Source: Bacillus sp. FJAT-45350 (GTDB lineage: Bacteria > Bacillota > Bacilli > Bacillales > NISU01). From it: a DNA stretch of 64,000 bases. Positions 3,587 to 61,756 of the stretch are shown piece after piece; positions within the stretch are counted from its first letter, which is position 1, and every line of letters begins with the position of its first letter. Below the pieces are notes generated by a model, which was given only the letters and a program-made list of their open reading frames with translations, ran no database searches and was not told the origin of the DNA. The stretch is from NCBI RefSeq assembly GCF_002335805.1, contig NZ_NISU01000001.1, positions 1,930,079 through 1,994,078 on the forward strand, read 5' to 3'. Position numbers and translations under genes: made by a program.

Positions 3587-3626
3587 ACTGTATAATTAAA
3601 TTATCAAATTCGAGTGGGTGGATACA

Positions 3627-5075
3627 TTGATTCAACATCAACAAGTAAATTTAAGTCCTTATATGGCGATTTATGACATAGTCGTACCGAAAGATAATGT
3701 TTTGAGAAAAATAAATGACTTAGTCGATTTTTCTTTTGTATATGAAGAATTAGTAGATAAATATTGCCTTGATAATGGGCGTAATGCGATCCATCCTATT
3801 CGCATGTTCAAATACTTATTATTAAAATGTATCCACAACGTATCCGATGTTGATATTGTCGAACGCTCAAAATATGATATGTCATTCAAATATTTTTTAG
3901 ATATGGCGCCAGAAGATCCAGTTATTGAGCCAAGTTCCTTAACGAAGTTTCGAAAACTGCGATTAAAGGATGTAAATTTATTAGACATGCTAATCAATAA
4001 AACGGTTGAGATCGCAATCGAAAAAGAAATTATAAAAAGCAAATCTATTATTGTAGATGCTACCCATACCCAGTCTCGTTACAATCAAAAATCAGCCAAA
4101 GAAGTGCTGGTTGATCGGTCTAAAAACCTAAGAAAGACGATTTATCAAGTAGATGAAACAATGAAAAGTAAATTTCCAACCAAGACAACATCAGATGTAT
4201 TAGAAGATCAAATTGAATACTGTGAAAAGCTGATTAAAGTCATTGAAAAAGAAGAGGTTATTTGTGAATTCCCCAAAGTAAAAGAAAAATTAAACCTGCT
4301 TAAAGAAACTGTGGCTGATGATATTGAACATCTACAATTATCCAAAGATGAAGACGCAAAAACAGGACATAAAACAGTGGACTCCTCATTCTTTGGTTAC
4401 AAAACACACATAGCCTTAAGCGAAGAAAGAATTATTACTGCGGCTGTTGTTACAACTGGAGAAAAGAATGACGGAAAGCAATTAGAAACCTTAATTGAAA
4501 AAAGTATGGAAGCTGGTATGGAAGTTGATACTGTGATTGGTGATGCCGCCTATTCAGAAAAAGGGAATATTGAATATACAAAAACAAACGAAATGAAGTT
4601 AATAGCTAAACTCAACCCTGTTGTCACACAAGGTAACCGAAAAAAAGAAGACGAATTTGAGTTTAATAAAGATGCTAGTATGTATGTTTGTAAGGCTGGA
4701 CATATGGCTATTAGGAAAGCACGAACTGGAAAAAAAGGTGTAGCCACAAATCAAACACACACATATTACTTTAATGTAGAAAAATGTAAGGTATGTCCTA
4801 TAAAAGAAGGATGTTATAAAGATGGAGCTAAAAGTAAGACTTATTCTGTGAGCATTAAATCGAATATACACAAAGAACAAATAGCCTTTCAAGAAAGCGA
4901 TTATTTTAAAGAAAAATCAAAAGAAAGATATAAAATTGAAGCAAAAAACAGTGAATTAAAACACCGACACGGGTATGATGTAGCATCATCTTCGGGTCTT
5001 ATTGGCATGGAACTACAAGGAGCTATGTCGATATTTACAGTTAATTTGAAAAGGATTTTGAAGTTAATAGGTTAA
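3627..5075 (+). CDS. IS1182-family transposase
   Basis: The 482-residue protein begins (M)IQHQQVNLSPYMAIYD when started at TTG 3627, as is typical of the family. The longer GTG start at 3618 has no ribosome site, while GGGTGG lies at good spacing before the TTG. The order is an N-terminal DUF772-like helical region (about 1-110), then a DDE transposase core with the first aspartate in IIVDATHTQ near 140, a second in VIGDAAYSE near 305 and the terminal glutamate region near KIEAKNSELKHRHG around 440. Between the last two lies a cysteine-rich insert (CKVCPIKEGC). No frameshift or stop is seen. The protein would catalyse movement of this element. Confidence 0.93.
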   Translation: MIQHQQVNLSPYMAIYDIVVPKDNVLRKINDLVDFSFVYEELVDKYCLDNGRNAIHPIRMFKYLLLKCIHNVSDVDIVERSKYDMSFKYFLDMAPEDPVIEPSSLTKFRKLRLKDVNLLDMLINKTVEIAIEKEIIKSKSIIVDATHTQSRYNQKSAKEVLVDRSKNLRKTIYQVDETMKSKFPTKTTSDVLEDQIEYCEKLIKVIEKEEVICEFPKVKEKLNLLKETVADDIEHLQLSKDEDAKTGHKTVDSSFFGYKTHIALSEERIITAAVVTTGEKNDGKQLETLIEKSMEAGMEVDTVIGDAAYSEKGNIEYTKTNEMKLIAKLNPVVTQGNRKKEDEFEFNKDASMYVCKAGHMAIRKARTGKKGVATNQTHTYYFNVEKCKVCPIKEGCYKDGAKSKTYSVSIKSNIHKEQIAFQESDYFKEKSKERYKIEAKNSELKHRHGYDVASSSGLIGMELQGAMSIFTVNLKRILKLIG

Positions 5076-45297: not shown

Positions 45298-48200
45298 TTA
45301 GAGTACATTAAAATATCTTCCCTCAGGATGGGCAAAGACCATTGCTGTTACTGATGCTTCTGGTTCCATCATGAATTCTTCTGTTAGACGAATGCCTATT
45401 TTTCCTGGGTCAATGAGTTTAAATAGTTTCGCTTGGTCCTCTAGATTCGGACAAGCTGGATACCCATAGGAAACACGAACTCCTTGATATTTAGCTGAAA
45501 ATCTGTCTTGCATCGTGAAATCAGCTGGGTCTGGGAAGCCCAATTGATCTCTCATTAATTGATGCACTCTTTCAGCAAAGCCCTCTGCCATTTCAAGAGC
45601 AATCGCTTGAATTAAGTGGCTATATAAATAGTCTCCATTTTCTTTCGCTTGTTCAGCTAGTTTCCTTACCCCTTTCCCTGCTGTTACAGCTAAGAAACCT
45701 ACGTAATCCATTTCATTTGAAGTAACCGGACGCAGATAATCAGCTAAACATAAGTAAGGTGCTTGATGTTGTCTTGGGAATGTGTAACGCTCGATTTCAG
45801 TTTTTTCATCTTCTGGACTATAAATGATAACGTCATTTCCATCAGATTGAGCAGGGAAGAATTGATACAAACCATGCGCTGAAAGTCGACCACTGACTTT
45901 TGCATCGGCAATAATGCTTTCTACTTTGTCCTTTAACTGAAGAGCTTTTTCATCTCCCTCATCAAGAAGGCGACTCACTTTCCCTTGTAAACCTAGATGC
46001 TTACCTAGTAGCATTTGAAGATTAATGTATGGCTCTAAATGTGATATTTTATAATCCTTTAATACGTGAGGCTTAAAATCATTCGGTTTAAAGATAGGAG
46101 CTGTTTGAGAAACATTTGAGCGAATCCCTTCATCTACTTTAGCCTTCACCTGATTGTCAACTTGTTCTGCTGTTGCTGATTTTCTTTGCTCTTGCTCTTC
46201 TAGTAACTTAGCGCGCTCATCTTCTTTAACTAATTTATTAGCTAAATCTAAGCCGTTCATCGCATCCTTTGCATAAAGAACAAGTCCATCATATTCAGCG
46301 GAGATTTTATTATCAGTAAACTTTCTCGTTAATGCAGCACCACCTACTAAAATAGGAATGGAGATACTTTGTGCTCGTAAATCTTGAGCAGTTAATACCA
46401 TCTGTTGTGCTGATTTTACTAATAGTCCAGATAAACCGATGGCACTTGGATTTTCACGTTTTACTGCTTCTATTAACTCATTAGATGTTACTTTAATCCC
46501 TAAGTTTACAATTTTAAAGCCGTTGTTTCCTAAAATAATCTCGACTAAGTTCTTTCCTATGTCATGAACGTCGCCTTTAACAGTTGCTAAGATGATCTTT
46601 CCTTTGCCGTTGTCATCCTCTTTCTTCTCCATATGAGGTTCTAGAAATGCAACAGATGCTTTCATCACTTCGGCACTTTGGAGTACTTCTGCAACAATTA
46701 ACTCATTATTATTAAAGAGACGTCCTACTTCATCCATTCCAGTCATTAATGGTCCATTAATAATATCAAGTGGTTCATCATAGGAATCTAACGCTTTTTG
46801 TAAATCATCAAGTAAACCATCTTTTGTTCCCTCTACAATATAATTCGATAGCCTTTCTTCTAATGTAAGGTTTGATTGTTCAACTTTCTTCTCTACCTTT
46901 TTCCCACGATAAAAAGCGGTAAATTCTGCAAGAGTTTCATCCGTTGTCTCATATAAAAGAGTTCTTGAAAGGAGCTTCTCTTCATCAGAAATTGAAGCAT
47001 AACGCTCAAGCTTTTCTGTATTTACGATAGCATAATCTAAACCAGCTTGAGTACAGTGATATAGATAAACTGCATTTAAAACTTCACGTCCTACTGGTGG
47101 TAAACCGAAAGAAACATTACTTACACCGAGTATTGTTAAACACTCTGGTAACGCTTCTTTAATTAAACGTATTCCCTCAATGGTCGCTTCTGCAGAACCT
47201 ATATACTGCTCATCACCCGTTCCAACTGGAAACACAAGTGGGTCAAAAATAATATCAGTAGGTGCAATTTTATATTTATTTACAAGTAAGTCATATGAGC
47301 GTTTCGCTACCTCAAGCTTCCTTTCAGCTGTTACTGCCATCCCATCCTCATCAATTGTACCAACGACAACCGCAGCACCATATCGATGAATTAAAGGGGC
47401 TACCTTTTCAAAACGCTCTTCTCCATCCTCCAAGTTGATAGAGTTAATTATAGCTTTACCTTGTGAATATGTTAAAGCACGTTCAATGACTTCATCATCA
47501 GTTGAGTCAATCATAAGAGGTACCTTAACTTTGTTTACAACAAATTTCAGGAACTCTTCAATATCTTCTAGTTCTTCGCGGTCTGGGTCAGCTAAGCAGA
47601 CGTCGATTACATGAGCTCCTCTTTTAACTTGAGCTCTTGCAATTTCAGAAGCTTCTTCATATAATCCATCCGCAATTAGATTCTTAAACTTTCTAGAGCC
47701 GATAACATTTGTTCTTTCACCAACAAATAACGGACGCATCGAATCATCATATACTAATGGCTCAATTCCTGACACAGCGTGAGGATGATTCTTTTGAGGT
47801 TGTCTCGGTTGATAGTTCTTCGTCATTTCAACTATTGCTTCAATATGCTCAGGCCTTGTACCACAACAACCACCAACAATATTTAACCAACCCTTCTCAG
47901 CAAAAGCAGTTAATTTTTGTGCAAGCGATTGTGGTGATTCATGATAGTTCCCTTCTTCATCAGGTAAACCCGCATTAGGGTAACAACTTACATATGAAGT
48001 AGCTAACTCAGATAATGAACGAAGATGATCTTGCATAAACTCAGGACCAGTCGCACAGTTTAAACCCACTACTGTCGGCTTCATATGCTCTAACGACAAA
48101 TAAAACGCCTCGATATTTTGCCCAGCTAAAGTCGTACCCATTGGCTCAATTGTACCCGAGACAATTAATGGTAATTTTTTACCTGTAGAACCAAACGCAC

Positions 48201-48741
48201 GATCAATCCCAATGTAGGCGGCTTTAACATTTCTCATATCCTGACTTGTTTCCAATAAAAGTAAGTCGACTCCACCATCCATTAGAGCTAGTACCTGTTC
48301 CTCATAGCAATCAGCAAGCTGGTCAAATGTAACACCACCTGTAACAGACAAAGACTTCGTTGTCGGACCCATTGCACCAGCAACAAAACGAGGCCATTCG
48401 CTTGTTGAATATTTATCTGCAGCAGCACGAGCAAGCTTAACTGCTTCGATGTTAATTTCTTTCGTTAAATGCTGAAGGTCATAATCCTCTAATACAATGC
48501 TCGTGGCACCAAATGTATTCGTTTCAACAATATCTGCTCCTGCAGCAAAATACGCCTCATGAATATTTGTAAGTACATGAGGAGCTGTAATGTTTAAATA
48601 TTCATTACAGCCATCATAATCATCCCCACCAAAATCCTCAGCGGTAAGGTTTGATTGCTGAAGCATTGTCCCCATTGCACCGTCTAATACTAGTATTTTT
48701 TTTTGTAATTGTTTTTCAAATTCTGTTATTGTATTACTCAT
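45298..48741 (-). CDS. metH: Cobalamin-dependent methionine synthase MetH
   Basis: The 1147-residue protein has all four modules: homocysteine-binding (about 1-310, with LNCATGPE and GGCCGTRPEH zinc cysteines), pterin-binding (about 335-620, GERTNVIGSRKFK), B12-binding with cap (about 640-880, GDVHDIGKN carrying the cobalt-ligand histidine), and the SAM-dependent activation domain (about 900-1147, SYGYPACPNLEDQ). It moves a methyl group from methyl-tetrahydrofolate through cobalamin to homocysteine. It is somewhat shorter than the E. coli enzyme (1227). yitJ lies 42 bases upstream and supplies its folate substrate. Confidence 0.97.
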   Translation of the reverse strand: MSNTITEFEKQLQKKILVLDGAMGTMLQQSNLTAEDFGGDDYDGCNEYLNITAPHVLTNIHEAYFAAGADIVETNTFGATSIVLEDYDLQHLTKEINIEAVKLARAAADKYSTSEWPRFVAGAMGPTTKSLSVTGGVTFDQLADCYEEQVLALMDGGVDLLLLETSQDMRNVKAAYIGIDRAFGSTGKKLPLIVSGTIEPMGTTLAGQNIEAFYLSLEHMKPTVVGLNCATGPEFMQDHLRSLSELATSYVSCYPNAGLPDEEGNYHESPQSLAQKLTAFAEKGWLNIVGGCCGTRPEHIEAIVEMTKNYQPRQPQKNHPHAVSGIEPLVYDDSMRPLFVGERTNVIGSRKFKNLIADGLYEEASEIARAQVKRGAHVIDVCLADPDREELEDIEEFLKFVVNKVKVPLMIDSTDDEVIERALTYSQGKAIINSINLEDGEERFEKVAPLIHRYGAAVVVGTIDEDGMAVTAERKLEVAKRSYDLLVNKYKIAPTDIIFDPLVFPVGTGDEQYIGSAEATIEGIRLIKEALPECLTILGVSNVSFGLPPVGREVLNAVYLYHCTQAGLDYAIVNTEKLERYASISDEEKLLSRTLLYETTDETLAEFTAFYRGKKVEKKVEQSNLTLEERLSNYIVEGTKDGLLDDLQKALDSYDEPLDIINGPLMTGMDEVGRLFNNNELIVAEVLQSAEVMKASVAFLEPHMEKKEDDNGKGKIILATVKGDVHDIGKNLVEIILGNNGFKIVNLGIKVTSNELIEAVKRENPSAIGLSGLLVKSAQQMVLTAQDLRAQSISIPILVGGAALTRKFTDNKISAEYDGLVLYAKDAMNGLDLANKLVKEDERAKLLEEQEQRKSATAEQVDNQVKAKVDEGIRSNVSQTAPIFKPNDFKPHVLKDYKISHLEPYINLQMLLGKHLGLQGKVSRLLDEGDEKALQLKDKVESIIADAKVSGRLSAHGLYQFFPAQSDGNDVIIYSPEDEKTEIERYTFPRQHQAPYLCLADYLRPVTSNEMDYVGFLAVTAGKGVRKLAEQAKENGDYLYSHLIQAIALEMAEGFAERVHQLMRDQLGFPDPADFTMQDRFSAKYQGVRVSYGYPACPNLEDQAKLFKLIDPGKIGIRLTEEFMMEPEASVTAMVFAHPEGRYFNVL

Positions 48742-48783
48742 CCTTTAATCGGTCCTTTCTTATGTCAAAAGCATGTTCGATGG

Positions 48784-50616
48784 TCACTTTGTTGTAAGTA
48801 CACCGACTTTTTCATGGATATACTTTGTTAATTCAACTGTCATTCCGTAACGTAAAAACGGTGTAATAAGATAAATTCCGTGGAAATGTTTTAACGCAAC
48901 ATCGATTAACGACTTTGATAAATCTACCCCTTCTTTTTGAGCAGCTTCTCTATTATCACCATGTGTAGCCATTCGAGCTCGAATCTCATCCGTTAACTTT
49001 ATACCTGGAACTTCATTGTGTAAAAATTCTGCGTTCCTTGAACTTGTTAAAGGCATAATTCCTATATAAATTGGCTTCGTAATATGCTTTGTCGCATGAT
49101 AAACATCAACAATTTGTTCTTCACTATAAATAGGCTGAGTCATAAAGTAATCCGCACCTGACTCAATCTTCTTTTCCATTCTTTTAACTGCCTTATCTAA
49201 ATGACGAACATTAGGGTTAAAAGCGGCCGCAACAGAGAAATTCGTTTTCTGACCTAACGACTTCCCTGAAAAAGAAATACCTTCATTAAGCTGTTTAATT
49301 AACTGTATTAAATCAAAAGAAGTTAAATCATATACAGATGTCGCTCCTGGAAAATCACCTATTTTTGTAGGGTCACCAGTAATTGCTAACAATTGATCAA
49401 TCCCTAATGTATGTAAACCCATTAAATGAGACTGAAGACCAATTAAATTTCTATCTCTGCACGTAACATGAATTAGAGGACGCGCCCCTACTTGGGTTTT
49501 TATAATTGAGCCTAATGCCATATTGTCAACACGTGGCGATGCTAATGAATTATCTGCCATTGTTACAGCATCAACACCAGCTTCTGTTAATTTTTTCGCT
49601 CCTTCTACAAATCCTTCAATTGAAAGTTGCTTAGGAGGATCTAGCTCGACAATGACGGAATGACGCTTTCTAACAATTTCATGTATTGGCTCTTCTGAAT
49701 TATTCTTATATATATTGATTTTTTCTGGCTCTGAAGAAATAACGACCTTTTCTTCAATTGGTGCTTTTCCTTTTAATGCTTGAGCCATTGCTTCAATATG
49801 CTCTGGCGTTGTACCACAACAACCACCTAATAGTCGAATCCCTTGCTCACGGAACTTTAACGCACTTTCTCCAAAGTAGCTAGGGTTAGACTGATAGAAA
49901 AAGCGTCCATCACGGTAATCTGGCAAACTTGCATTTGGATAAGCAGACAAGAATGCATTATCTAGTAATGGTACCTCTTCGAAGGATCGAGTCATATGGT
50001 AAGGTCCCATACGACAATTTAAACCAACTACATTTGCACCGACATTCGCCAATTGAGTTAGTGCACTTGAAATCTTCATTCCATTGTGTAGTACGCCAAT
50101 ATCCCCTAAAGATACTTGAGCTATTATTGGAATATCTGTCATTGTTCTAGCTATTTTTACAGATTCAAAAATTTCTTCAAAGTCGTAATAAGTTTCAAGA
50201 AGTATTCCATCTGGTGTTTCTTCTAATAAACTATCAAGCTGGTTTACAAAACTACTTTTAATCTCCTCTAAAGCCCATGCCTTCTTCTGAATTCCTCTAA
50301 TTCCACCAATAGTACCTAGAACGTAGCTTTGATTTTTGGCTGCTTTTTTTGCAATGTTAACTGCTGCACGATTAAGTAATTTAACCTTATTATCGAGTCC
50401 ATATTTTTCTAATTTAATTGAGTTTGCCGCATACGTATTTGTTTGAATAACATCAGCACCAGCGTCAATGTAGGCACGGTGAACATCAAATATCTTCTCT
50501 TCTTGAGTAATGTTTAATTCTTCATAACAATTATCGACACCTTGAGCATACAGAAGCGTACCCATGGCTCCATCACCAATTAAGATTTTTGATTGTAAGT
50601 CTTTTAATAGGTTCAT
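48784..50616 (-). CDS. yitJ: Bifunctional homocysteine S-methyltransferase / methylenetetrahydrofolate reductase
   Basis: The 610-residue protein is a fusion. The N-terminal part (about 1-290) is a homocysteine methyltransferase domain with GLNCRMGP and [16 protein letters not shown] zinc cysteines. The C-terminal part (about 315-610) is a MetF-type reductase with [15 protein letters not shown] and [10 protein letters not shown]. It reduces methylene-tetrahydrofolate to the methyl form used by MetH. The order metC-yitJ-metH under one S-box leader joins carbon supply and transfer. Confidence 0.95.
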
Positions 50617-50694
50617 ATGTTTCGCTTCCCTTCGCTCTGTTCAAAAACTAGTAGCAATTGCCTTTGATTGTCCAAGAACAATCTTTTTTCTTTT

Positions 50695-51858
50695 TTATAC
50701 TTTCTGACTAATTTTCTCGAAAGCTTGTTTAAAGTCTTTAATAATATCTTCTGTTTTTTCTAAACCTACAGATAAGCGTAGCAACCCTTCAGAAATCCCT
50801 CGCTTCTCACGTTCTTCTTTAGGCATTGCAGCATGGCTCATTGTTGGTGGATATGACAAAATTGATTCAACAGCACCGAGACTAACAGCAAATACAGGTA
50901 GCTCCACTTGCTCTACAAATCTCTTAACCGCATCTCTATCACGCAATGCAAATGAGAGAACAGCCCCAAAACCATCCGCTTGTTCCTTTTGTAATTGATG
51001 ACCTGCGTGCTTTTGTAAACCTGGATAGTAAACAGTTTCTACCTCTGGCACTGTTTCCAACCATTCTGCAATCTCAAGTGCTGCTTTGGATGAGTGCTCC
51101 ATTCGAACATGCAGAGTCTTTAAGCCACGTAATACTAACCAGCAATCTTGAACTCCAAGTACACAACCAAATGAGTTTTGTAGGAATGCTATCTGTTTTC
51201 CTAGCTCTTCATCTTTTACAACTGCTAAGCCTGCGATAACATCACTATGACCACCGATGAATTTCGTTGCACTATGTAATACTACATCTACACCAAATTC
51301 AATTGGTCTTTGTAATGCAGGAGTTAAAAACGTATTATCAAGGAATGTTAAGCAGTTATACTCCTTAGCAATCTGCACCAGTCCTTTAATATCCGTCACT
51401 TTTAACGTTGGGTTTGAAGGAGTTTCAATATATAGTAATTTTGTGTTTTCTTGAATATTGGTTCTTACTTCATCAAGGTTCGTCATATCAACGAACGTAA
51501 CTTCTATCCCTAGTCGAGGTAATACTTCTGTGACAAAACGAAATGTCCCGCCGTATACATCACTTGTAATTACTACATGGTCTCCCTTCGATAAAAGCAT
51601 AAAAGCAGTTGAAATTGCTGCCATACCTGATGCGAATGCAAAACCACGAGTGCCTCCCTCTAACTGAGCTATTGTCTCTTCTAACACTTCTCTTGTCGGG
51701 TTACCCGAACGTCCATAGTCATATTGTCCAAATGTATCAAAATCAAATTGATGAAATGTTGATGCATGTTGGATCGGGACACTTACTGCGCCGTTATGTT
51801 TATCAACCTTATGGTTATTATGCAATAATTGTGTTTGAAAGCTATATTCATTACTCAT
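50695..51858 (-). CDS. metC: Cystathionine beta-lyase MetC
   Basis: The 387-residue Cys/Met-metabolism PLP enzyme has the PLP lysine in HSATKFIGGHSDVIAG, YGRSGNPTREVLEE for cofactor phosphate and LGAVESILSYPP near the C-terminus. Position after metI and the length point to the beta-lyase that makes homocysteine from cystathionine. Gamma-lyase or sulfhydrylase activity cannot be excluded by motif. ATG 51858 follows AAGGGGAG. An upstream start would add 15 residues. Confidence 0.9.
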   Translation of the reverse strand: MSNEYSFQTQLLHNNHKVDKHNGAVSVPIQHASTFHQFDFDTFGQYDYGRSGNPTREVLEETIAQLEGGTRGFAFASGMAAISTAFMLLSKGDHVVITSDVYGGTFRFVTEVLPRLGIEVTFVDMTNLDEVRTNIQENTKLLYIETPSNPTLKVTDIKGLVQIAKEYNCLTFLDNTFLTPALQRPIEFGVDVVLHSATKFIGGHSDVIAGLAVVKDEELGKQIAFLQNSFGCVLGVQDCWLVLRGLKTLHVRMEHSSKAALEIAEWLETVPEVETVYYPGLQKHAGHQLQKEQADGFGAVLSFALRDRDAVKRFVEQVELPVFAVSLGAVESILSYPPTMSHAAMPKEEREKRGISEGLLRLSVGLEKTEDIIKDFKQAFEKISQKV

Positions 51859-51874
51859 ATTTATTAAACTCCCC

Positions 51875-52990
51875 TTATTTGATATTCTCTTCAACGTATG
51901 CAAATGCTTGTGCTAAATCTGCTATTAAATCCTCGACAAATTCAATTCCTACTGAAAAACGTAATAATCGATTACAAACACCATTCGCTAAACGAACTTC
52001 CTCTGGTACATCTGCATGTGTTTGAGTTGTAGGATATGTCATTAAACTCTCTACTCCGCCAAGACTTTCTGCAAATGAGATAAGCTTTAATTGTTGAAGG
52101 AAAGGATTGACCCAGTCCTCTTTCTTAATACGGAATGACATCATGCCCCCTCTGCCCGGGTACAAAACATCAACGACACTTTCATGCTGTTGTAAATATT
52201 CTACAATCGCCTTGGCATTTCTTTCATGCTGTTCCATTCGTAATGCAAGAGTTTTCATTCCTCTAATTAATAGCCAAGAATCAAATGCACCCAATGTACC
52301 ACCCATGCCATTAAAGAACATAAACAATCGCTCACAAAGCTCTTCTCCTTTAGCGACGATTAAGCCTGCTATTACATCGTTATGCCCACCTAAATATTTA
52401 GAAGCACTATGAATCACAATATCTGCTCCTTCTACTAATGGCTGTTGTAATAGGGGTGTGTAAAATGTGTTATCAACGATAAATAATAGATTATACTTTT
52501 TTGCTATTTTTGCTAAAGCTGAAATGTCCGCTTCCTGCATTAGTGGATTAGTAGGTGTTTCGATAAAAAGAGCTTTCGTTCTCTCATTAATCTTACTTTC
52601 AAATGTAGCCAAATCCCGTGGGTCACTATAGCAAAACGTTAAGCCCCAGTTATTCCAGCCTTGCTCGAATAATCGATAAGTGCCTCCATAAAGGTCTTGC
52701 GAGGCAAGAATTTCATCTCCTTGTTTAAACAATGAAAGGACCGTTTGCACCGCTGCCATTCCTGAGCTACAGGCGTACCCTCTATCTCCATGCTCTAATT
52801 TCGCTATAGCATTTTCTAATACTTCCCTTGTCGGGTTTCCTGTTCTAGCATAATCATATCCAGTTGACTCACCAATTCCTGTATGACGATAAGCTGTTGA
52901 AAAATAGACAGGTGTGTTAATTGCTCCTGTACGCTCATCTAGTCTGTTTCCGATTTGCACCAATGTTGTCTCTAATTCTTTTCTGTTCAT
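51875..52990 (-). CDS. metI: Cystathionine gamma-synthase / O-acetylhomoserine thiolyase MetI
   Basis: The 371-residue PLP enzyme carries YDYARTGNPTREVLENAI and the PLP lysine in HSASKYLGGHNDVIAG, and LGGVESLMTYPTTQTHAD near the end. As first gene of the S-box operon it corresponds to B. subtilis metI. ATG 52990 and TTG 52996 are both possible behind AGGAGG, and the ATG is preferred. It ends 16 bases before metC. Confidence 0.9.
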   Translation of the reverse strand: MNRKELETTLVQIGNRLDERTGAINTPVYFSTAYRHTGIGESTGYDYARTGNPTREVLENAIAKLEHGDRGYACSSGMAAVQTVLSLFKQGDEILASQDLYGGTYRLFEQGWNNWGLTFCYSDPRDLATFESKINERTKALFIETPTNPLMQEADISALAKIAKKYNLLFIVDNTFYTPLLQQPLVEGADIVIHSASKYLGGHNDVIAGLIVAKGEELCERLFMFFNGMGGTLGAFDSWLLIRGMKTLALRMEQHERNAKAIVEYLQQHESVVDVLYPGRGGMMSFRIKKEDWVNPFLQQLKLISFAESLGGVESLMTYPTTQTHADVPEEVRLANGVCNRLLRFSVGIEFVEDLIADLAQAFAYVEENIK

Positions 52991-53228
52991 GTTCAATCTT
53001 CCTCCTATCCAATTATGCCACTCTATCTCTTTACAATAAACTCATAATACTCAGAATCTTAAATAAATATTTGTATACAAAAAGGAAAATTAAACACACA
53101 ATGCGCCTTTTCTTTTAAAAAGGAGTAATTTTTCATTCCTGATTATAGAACAAAATTTGCATAGCTGAATTTGTTAAAAATATGCTTTCACTTATCCACA
53201 TTGAAATATTTTAAAGTTCCTAAGCAAC

Positions 53229-53394
53229 AAAAAACCCTTCCTCTTAAAATAAGAAGAAGGGTTTGTCATATAACTGGCTTCTTCTTATCTTTCAAGCTGG
53301 CTTTAAAAACGCTTGCTGGATTTAGCACCTGACCAGTTTCGGCTGGTTGCTGAGACTTCACAGGGCCATGTCCCTCCATCTCTCTTGATAAGAA
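53229..53394 (-). promoter_or_regulatory. SAM-I (S-box) riboswitch with terminator
   Basis: The minus strand shows the S-box core in order: CTTATCAAGAGA, GGAGGGA, GGCCC, TGAAG, CAGCAACC, GGTGCTAA, CCAGC, and the closing AGATAAG that pairs with the start. The terminator stem AAACCCTTCCTCTT (53232-53245) with AAGAAGAAGGGTTT (53251-53264) follows, with a T-run. SAM binding would favour termination and shut off metI-metC-yitJ-metH. Confidence 0.95.
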
Positions 53395-60610: not shown

Positions 60611-61018
60611 TCAGCCTTGAACTTTATCCTTTTCTTTTTTCAAATCAGCGTCCATTATACCATAAAATAGGGAAAGTCCTAAAGCGAATAGGGCTACCCA
60701 TATTTGTAGAAAAAAAAGAATGGCAAAGCTAATAAGTAATAGAAACGTAATTTTTTTATCATACGACTTCAACTGCCGATTGCCCTTAATTTTATGATAA
60801 TAGGCTTTCGTTAACTTTCTTATTACTACAGAAAAACATAGAAAACCGACGATAAAGGCGATAACTGAACCAAGTAAGCTAAAAGGCCCAAATACCAATT
60901 CAGCAAAAATTAGTGAGACTGTGAATTTTTCAGGCACTGGAAAAGAAACCATCGCGATCGTCACCCCAAGTACCCCCACCATAAGAAAAAGGATGTTACG
61001 GTCTAGTTTTCTTCTCAT
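60611..61018 (-). CDS. ypbF: YpbF-like membrane protein (DUF2663)
   Basis: The 135-residue protein has hydrophobic segments at about 7-25, 35-65 and 92-120, with a basic middle loop and a charged C-terminus (DADLKKEKDKVQG). ATG 61018 (MRRKLDRNIL) follows GGAGGG at seven bases. A longer frame to 61045 has no ribosome site. The place before ypbG matches B. subtilis ypbF. The function is unknown. Confidence 0.6.
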   Translation of the reverse strand: MRRKLDRNILFLMVGVLGVTIAMVSFPVPEKFTVSLIFAELVFGPFSLLGSVIAFIVGFLCFSVVIRKLTKAYYHKIKGNRQLKSYDKKITFLLLISFAILFFLQIWVALFALGLSLFYGIMDADLKKEKDKVQG

Positions 61019-61119
61019 CTGTATCCCTCCATAGTAACTATACATTTGTACATTTTATTCATTTCCTATATCGATATGCAGTTGTAGCTAAATTGAAAAC
61101 ACTAAGGTAAAAAACACCA

Positions 61120-61148
61120 TTGATATTTGTGTGAGCATGATGTATTAT
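61120..61148 (+). promoter_or_regulatory. Promoter of the candidate RNA at 61155-61404
   Basis: TTGATA (61120-61125) and TATTAT (61143-61148) on the plus strand are separated by 17 bases, so a start near 61155 is expected. It points away from ypbF, into a region with stems and a terminator but no convincing gene. Confidence 0.6.
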
Positions 61149-61154
61149 AGCAAT

Positions 61155-61404
61155 ATAAGAACAAGCTGATTTGTTCGTATGAATAATAAAGTTTTAACCT
61201 TTAAACTGTAATAGGGAGTTTTAATCGAAGCTCGAATGACAAACCTCTGTCTATATGACAAGGAGGGCACGCAGGAACGCTTCTGCAAACACCCACTTTT
61301 AGGAGTGGTGGTTTTAAAACTTTATTATACCAATCGTACGGCAAAACCGGCTCTAAATTATAACATTTCAAACCAGCTCCCTAATGGAGGCTGGTTTTTT
61401 TATT
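61155..61404 (+). ncRNA. Candidate structured RNA, about 250 nt, unrecognised
   Basis: Between a good promoter and a terminator lies a compact set of stems. A 5' hairpin GAACAA/TTGTTC (about 61160-61177) comes first. ATAATAAAGTTTTAA (61183-61197) then pairs perfectly with TTAAAACTTTATTAT (61314-61328) and encloses at least three inner stems: TGTC/GACA with CCT/AGG (about 61244-61266), GCAG-AA/TTCTGC (about 61271-61286) and CCAC/GTGG (about 61293-61308). The terminator AAACCAGC/GCTGGTTT with seven T lies at 61370-61401. It could be an sRNA or a riboswitch-like leader. It does not match any family I know. Confidence 0.55.
61370..61401 (+). terminator. Terminator of the candidate RNA
   Basis: AAACCAGC (61370-61377) pairs with GCTGGTTT (61390-61397), inner pairs close with CC/GG, and seven T follow. 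It is 120 bases upstream of the small gene at 61521. Confidence 0.85.
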
Positions 61405-61520
61405 TTATGCCTTCCTTTACTAGCAAGAGATACACATTTGATTATTTTACTAGAATCTAGCTACCTGTCCGTACCATTTTTTCAATATAGTAATACCTTT
61501 ATAGTAAGGGAGGGTATCAA

Positions 61521-61658
61521 TTGAATAAAGAAGAAGCGTTAGAGATTATTGCCCTTTTGGATCAATTGGAAGAAAAACTAAAAATGACGTCGTACAATAA
61601 TTTACTTGTCGGGATTATAAATACAAGAAATCGTATTATTAATGACTACCTAGAGTAG
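61521..61658 (+). CDS. Small protein, 45 residues, unrecognised
   Basis: The frame begins at TTG 61521 behind GGGAGGG and encodes (M)NKEEALEIIALLDQLEEK, then LKMTSYNNLLVGIINTRNRI and INDYLE. It is acidic at the front, helical throughout, and has no cysteine or membrane segment. The ribosome site is strong and the codon use is like that of its neighbours, which supports a real gene. The candidate RNA lies upstream in the same direction. The function is unknown. Confidence 0.65.
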   Translation: MNKEEALEIIALLDQLEEKLKMTSYNNLLVGIINTRNRIINDYLE

Positions 61659-61756
61659 TTTTGATGCGGGGATTCCAATTTCAATTCACTATAAACAATA
61701 ATATACAAAAAGAAGTAAAGATAGTTCAACTTCCTACTACCTCCTCTTTTAAAACA

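Follow-up and report, generated by a model that had tools for sequence, protein, structure and literature searches.

A divergent third 6S RNA gene in Bacillus sp. FJAT-45350, probably of the 6S-2 (BsrB) lineage, which occupies a different chromosomal site in almost every family

What is the structured RNA encoded between ypbF and a 45-residue reading frame in Bacillus sp. FJAT-45350, and how did it come to lie there? In the window (the whole stretch of 64,000 nucleotides that was analysed), the initial annotation had described a structured, non-coding RNA that stands free, with a promoter and a terminator of its own, and this description stands. The TTGATA-17-TATTAT promoter, the perfect 15-bp long-range stem, the internal stems that it encloses and the strong intrinsic terminator are all present (Table 1), and the fold of positions 61155-61404 reaches -77.2 kcal/mol versus -49.6 +/- 4.6 kcal/mol for 200 shuffled sequences, none of which is equally stable (z -6.0). 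The RNA had also been presented as unrecognised, and comparison by eye had found no match to 6S RNA. A search of Rfam gave a direct match to RF00013, the 6S RNA family, which is the outcome that had been named beforehand as speaking against novelty; the 6S family had been missed by eye. Positions 61120-61400 can be read, with a probability of roughly 93%, as an entire 6S RNA gene belonging to the 6S-2 (BsrB) lineage.

The promoter is of sigma-A type, with its -35 element at 61120-61125 and its -10 element at 61143-61148, and gives a 10/12 match in a promoter scan of the window copy; by themselves, matches of this kind arise often by chance (nine found versus 6.6 expected). The terminator consists of a hairpin at 61370-61397 followed by a T-run, with a stability of -15.7 kcal/mol. 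Both elements are considered genuine because they recur in most homologous copies: in most of 40 copies, the promoter is present and the terminator has the same ACCAG...CTGGT form. The order of elements is that of a closing stem, a central bubble with a 3' hairpin and a terminal stem. The inner closing stem, which is the 15-bp stem, borders the central bubble, and the stems enclosed by it correspond to the central-bubble hairpin and the terminal arm. The terminator scan picked up the inner hairpin alone, which is actually the 3' hairpin of the central bubble.

Table 1. Features of the 6S-2-type locus (positions in the window)
Feature	Position	Strand	Basis and remarks
Sigma-A type promoter TTGATA-17-TATTAT	61120-61148	+	Read from sequence; equivalent -35/-10 elements in most homologous loci
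6S-2-type RNA (RF00013): closing stem, central bubble, terminal stem	61160-61357	+	Rfam and family model R1
5' arm of inner closing stem (15-bp stem)	61183-61197	+	ATAATAAAGTTTTAA, exact complement of 61314-61328; covaries among 6S lineages
Predicted product-RNA template AGTTTTAACCTTT	61190-61202	+	Position as in the 6S-1 template; putative start site
3' central-bubble hairpin CCACTTTTAGGAGTGG	61293-61308	+	Paired in 40/40 copies
3' arm of inner closing stem	61314-61328	+	TTAAAACTTTATTAT, exact reverse complement of 61183-61197; covaries among 6S lineages
Intrinsic terminator, hairpin and T-run	61370-61400	+	Recurs in most copies

RF00013 is the sole above-threshold Rfam match in the region. 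It spans model positions 1-187 of 187 and scores 46.6 bits, a marginal excess of 0.2 bits over the gathering cut-off of 46.4 bits. Scanning of 61000-61700 otherwise yielded a sub-threshold antisense sRNA match and no match to any known riboswitch family. The genome has three 6S genes, of which the other two score 90 and 88.7 bits with the same model; the third, in the window, is divergent. As an annotation this is ordinary, namely a missed third 6S gene lying just at the Rfam cut-off, and the comparative pattern described below is the more useful result.

In a tree of 110 6S genes, 6S-1, the type represented by L001 (one of the other two genes of this genome), a third type and the lineage of the window copy form separate groups. 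The names of the genes flanking L001 and L002 were read from sequence. The genome's own 6S-1 (L002) stands at the gene of the tRNA threonylcarbamoyladenosine dehydratase (TcdA/YrvM), which is the 6S-1 locus; it forms a separate clade, shares about 50% identity with the window copy and carries the product-RNA template GUUUUGAGCCAAC, versus GUUUUAACCUUU in the window copy. With B. subtilis 6S-1 (BsrA; aspS-yrvM) the window copy shares its family and mechanism class. L001 lies between the genes of an MFS transporter and a penicillin-binding protein. Its type, which family model R1 detects at 47 bits, is by the tree the nearest paralog of the window copy, a weakly supported placement, with 60% identity, the template GUUUCGAACCGUG and a locus fixed in 8/8 genomes. 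The third type of the tree, a further 6S lineage with the template TGTCT[CT]AAACC, was noted at loci L220, L221, L223, L226, L227, L232-L235, L238, L239 and L242; none of its 63 between-family locus pairs share neighbours.

The name 6S-2 comes from synteny. In five genomes of one family (G042, G111, G139, G216 and G363), the lineage of the window copy is found beside a RecQ helicase gene (TIGR01389), and in all but G042 an FMN-dependent NADH-azoreductase gene also adjoins the copy; YocH-like and DesR-like genes occur near the RecQ-site copies for which longer stretches were read. BS203 RNA, later called bsrB or 6S-2, was described from the yocI-yocJ intergenic region, according to the title of Ando et al. 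2002 as cited in PMC4211561. The window RNA is assigned to the 6S-2 type because the same lineage occupies this RecQ/yocI-azoreductase/yocJ site in genomes of the B. subtilis group. Its predicted orthology to bsrB is thus a matter of lineage synteny and not of direct alignment with B. subtilis 168. Architecture and size (about 200 nt) are shared with B. subtilis 6S-2, whereas the location differs, the window copy having ypbF on one side and a chemoreceptor gene on the other. The lineage has no conserved location, and the yocI-yocJ site is not a defining feature of 6S-2 across species.

Sequence and structure, on the other hand, are held firmly. Forty aligned copies have a mean column identity of 80%, a nearly invariant product-RNA template and an invariant 3' hairpin, and 98.9% of the structure cells are paired over 37 pairs. 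Compensatory change in the 15-bp stem, the evidence that the initial annotation had asked for, was found at two levels. Within the near-invariant 6S-2 lineage, five pairs show two-sided changes, two of them in this stem. Across the four 6S lineages of the order, with nine antisense rows removed, two-sided changes occur at 24 of 37 pairs, versus 16.4 in shuffles (0/500 as high), and in 163 cells versus 57, in an alignment that was fitted to the model and so leans towards the structure; the stem covaries there as well. Its unbroken 15 bp are peculiar to the window copy, nearly all other copies in the alignment of 40 being mismatched there.

A DNA search detected the lineage in 175 of 397 genomes of the order. 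In a class-wide draw, 36 of 299 genomes were positive with both orders counted, including one family of another order. The promoter-stem-terminator block that the initial annotation had proposed to seek in relatives is widespread, but not at the same place: 28 YpbG-ypbF loci taken from other genomes yielded no 6S match. Those empty loci had made the window copy look like a lone oddity, a notion overturned by the 175 positive genomes. In general, the 6S-2 lineage occupies a different chromosomal site in almost every family, while the sister 6S-1 stays put: a gene within 1.5 kb is shared by 451 of 518 between-family pairs of 6S-1 loci and by 22 of 22 pairs of the L001 type, versus 21 of 1008 for the 6S-2 lineage. 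Here, ypbF is separated from the pxp genes by the 6S-2 RNA, the 45-residue frame and genes for the chemoreceptor, for an IS3-type transposase and for a malic enzyme; in the relative G050 this place is taken by a sigma/anti-sigma pair. Frames of the IS3-type transposase were seen just past the window end (L270:4178-5316), downstream of the 6S-chemoreceptor block.

Phylogenetic distance is poorly reflected in this distribution. Among the nine nearest genomes by SpoIVA and Der identity (G044, G088, G005, G050, G002, G086, G070, G028 and G048), the lineage is absent from eight, and G002 has it elsewhere in its genome. The window copy is 88% and 87% identical to those of G077 and G049, members of far families with Der identities of 74-76%. 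The 6S-1 gene, compared with that of the closest genome G044 (Der identity 91%), reaches 81%, below these values. Over 20 genomes, between-family identity is related to Der identity with a Spearman coefficient of 0.48 for 6S-1 versus 0.08 for the 6S-2 lineage, and Mantel tests over all pairs give p 0.001 and p 0.14, respectively.

Such a pattern could arise by horizontal movement, or else by vertical inheritance in which 6S-2 has moved solely by chromosomal rearrangement and has been lost independently in close relatives. The latter account can draw on the 18 of 65 within-family pairs that keep their neighbours, and on the strong constraint on a short RNA, which could hide a distance signal. 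It fits badly with the lack of correlation with Der, with absence from nearly all close genomes of a gene so similar to far-family copies, and with the carriage of an intact copy by a plasmid; it is possible but rather doubtful. Horizontal movement is favoured because of the scattered loci, the absence in near genomes, the missing Der correlation, the plasmid copy and the occurrence of multiple copies together, several genomes holding two or three copies of the lineage. For the window copy, a lineage-specific arrival between ypbF and the chemoreceptor gene by this route is likely. The broader proposal is that 6S-2 travels horizontally as a self-contained block of promoter, RNA and terminator, about 290 bp long, which spreads among Bacillales and a second order, partly on plasmids, the window copy being one gain. 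As constraint could also blunt the distance signal, this proposal is held at even odds. If it is true, bacteria can acquire, duplicate or shed a brake on their own RNA polymerase. That a global regulator is constant in sequence but not in address, and is carried by a plasmid with its own promoter, suggests a context-independent, mobile function, and the possible mobility of 6S-2 is the aspect that most deserves pursuit.

The plasmid in question is a 22-kb circular Niallia replicon, on which an intact 6S-2 gene with promoter and terminator lies beside parA. In the record of Niallia sp. XMNu-256 (NZ_CP137638.1, L145:4429-4621), this gene is unannotated and adjoins parA and a replication initiator gene, and the plasmid also bears two tyrosine recombinase genes. 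Integrase genes near 6S-2 copies occur only there and at one other locus. No report of a plasmid- or phage-borne 6S RNA was found in the literature searched. A copy on a 690-kb 'plasmid' of Cytobacillus spongiae was rejected as a case of plasmid carriage, its neighbours (peptidylprolyl isomerase and MtnX genes) being those of copies in ordinary genomes. In a genome of the other order (G626), three 6S-2 copies lie within 8 kb (L341:4992-12857).

Phage records gave no match to 6S-2. Two IMG/VR contigs were discarded as phage-borne copies: the sequence common to both begins precisely where the RNA ends at its 3' side and extends into phnA, and the RNA on them is accordingly taken as host flank beside a prophage. 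On these contigs (L177:8745-8950 and L178:9144-9340), the right ends of two different prophages, with tail fibre, holin, endolysin and DnaD-like genes, abut the exact 3' end of a 6S-2 gene behind which phnA lies. The usual 6S-2 terminator is absent there, and at these two loci the 3' end of 6S-2 resembles an attachment site for prophages.

The identity of the window RNA has also to be weighed against other readings. A decaying 6S pseudogene would explain why its Rfam score is low beside those of the genome's other two 6S genes. This is very improbable, as the promoter, the terminator and all conserved elements are intact, the closing stem is more perfect than the stems of its relatives and family model R1 gives 200.9 bits, the window copy having belonged to its training set. 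A new, unrecognised class merely resembling 6S RNA, to which the marginal score and local departures from the RF00013 consensus at several places might point, is scarcely credible given the full-length in-register match, the covariation across 6S lineages and the presence of the lineage at the bsrB locus of B. subtilis-group genomes. Equally remote is the suggestion, made in the initial annotation, of a riboswitch or leader that would control the 45-residue gene at 61521-61658: the order of structured RNA, terminator and small gene with a Shine-Dalgarno-like GGGAGGG speaks for it, but the RNA is 6S, and the idea is not supported because homologous copies stand before unrelated genes with no conserved downstream association (the downstream frame is on the opposite strand in 15 of the 43 loci having one) and because 100 other genomes of the order contain no homolog of the 45-residue frame. 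This plus-strand frame has a good Shine-Dalgarno sequence and no match in Pfam or NCBIfam.

Taken as a 6S-2 RNA, the window transcript can be given a probable mode of action. It is established that 6S RNAs mimic open promoters on the RNA polymerase holoenzyme and are freed after templating a short product RNA (PMC7430163, PMC8876501, PMC11077062). For 6S-2 itself, a review from 2020 still called the role unknown (PMC7430163). Transcription of the window RNA, its binding to polymerase, product-RNA synthesis and release can be inferred by analogy with the 6S RNAs of B. subtilis and E. coli. The transcript would fold into a rod with a central bubble that mimics an open promoter, and the sigma-A holoenzyme would bind it in place of DNA. 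Polymerase would then copy the 5' strand of the bubble into a short product RNA, predicted as 5'-AAAGGUUAAAACU, which would open the inner closing stem and release the enzyme. The published product RNA of 6S-1, GUUCGGUCAAAACU (PMC8876501), implies the 6S-1 template AGUUUUGACCGAAC, and the window RNA has AGUUUUAACCUUU at the equivalent place. In verified cases, a GG occurs near positions 4-6 of the product RNA and an adenine just before the start (PMC8414754). The CCUUUA of the window RNA would give AAAGG, with GG at positions 4 and 5 and an adenine just before the predicted start, which fits this rule. A constrained fold with the template masked revealed no obvious refolding helix upon product-RNA binding.

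Two other features of the window were recorded. A SAM riboswitch (RF00162, 88.4 bits) lies on the minus strand at 53282-53394, just upstream of methionine genes at 45298-52996, and a transposase with DUF772 and DDE domains is encoded on the plus strand at 3618-5075.
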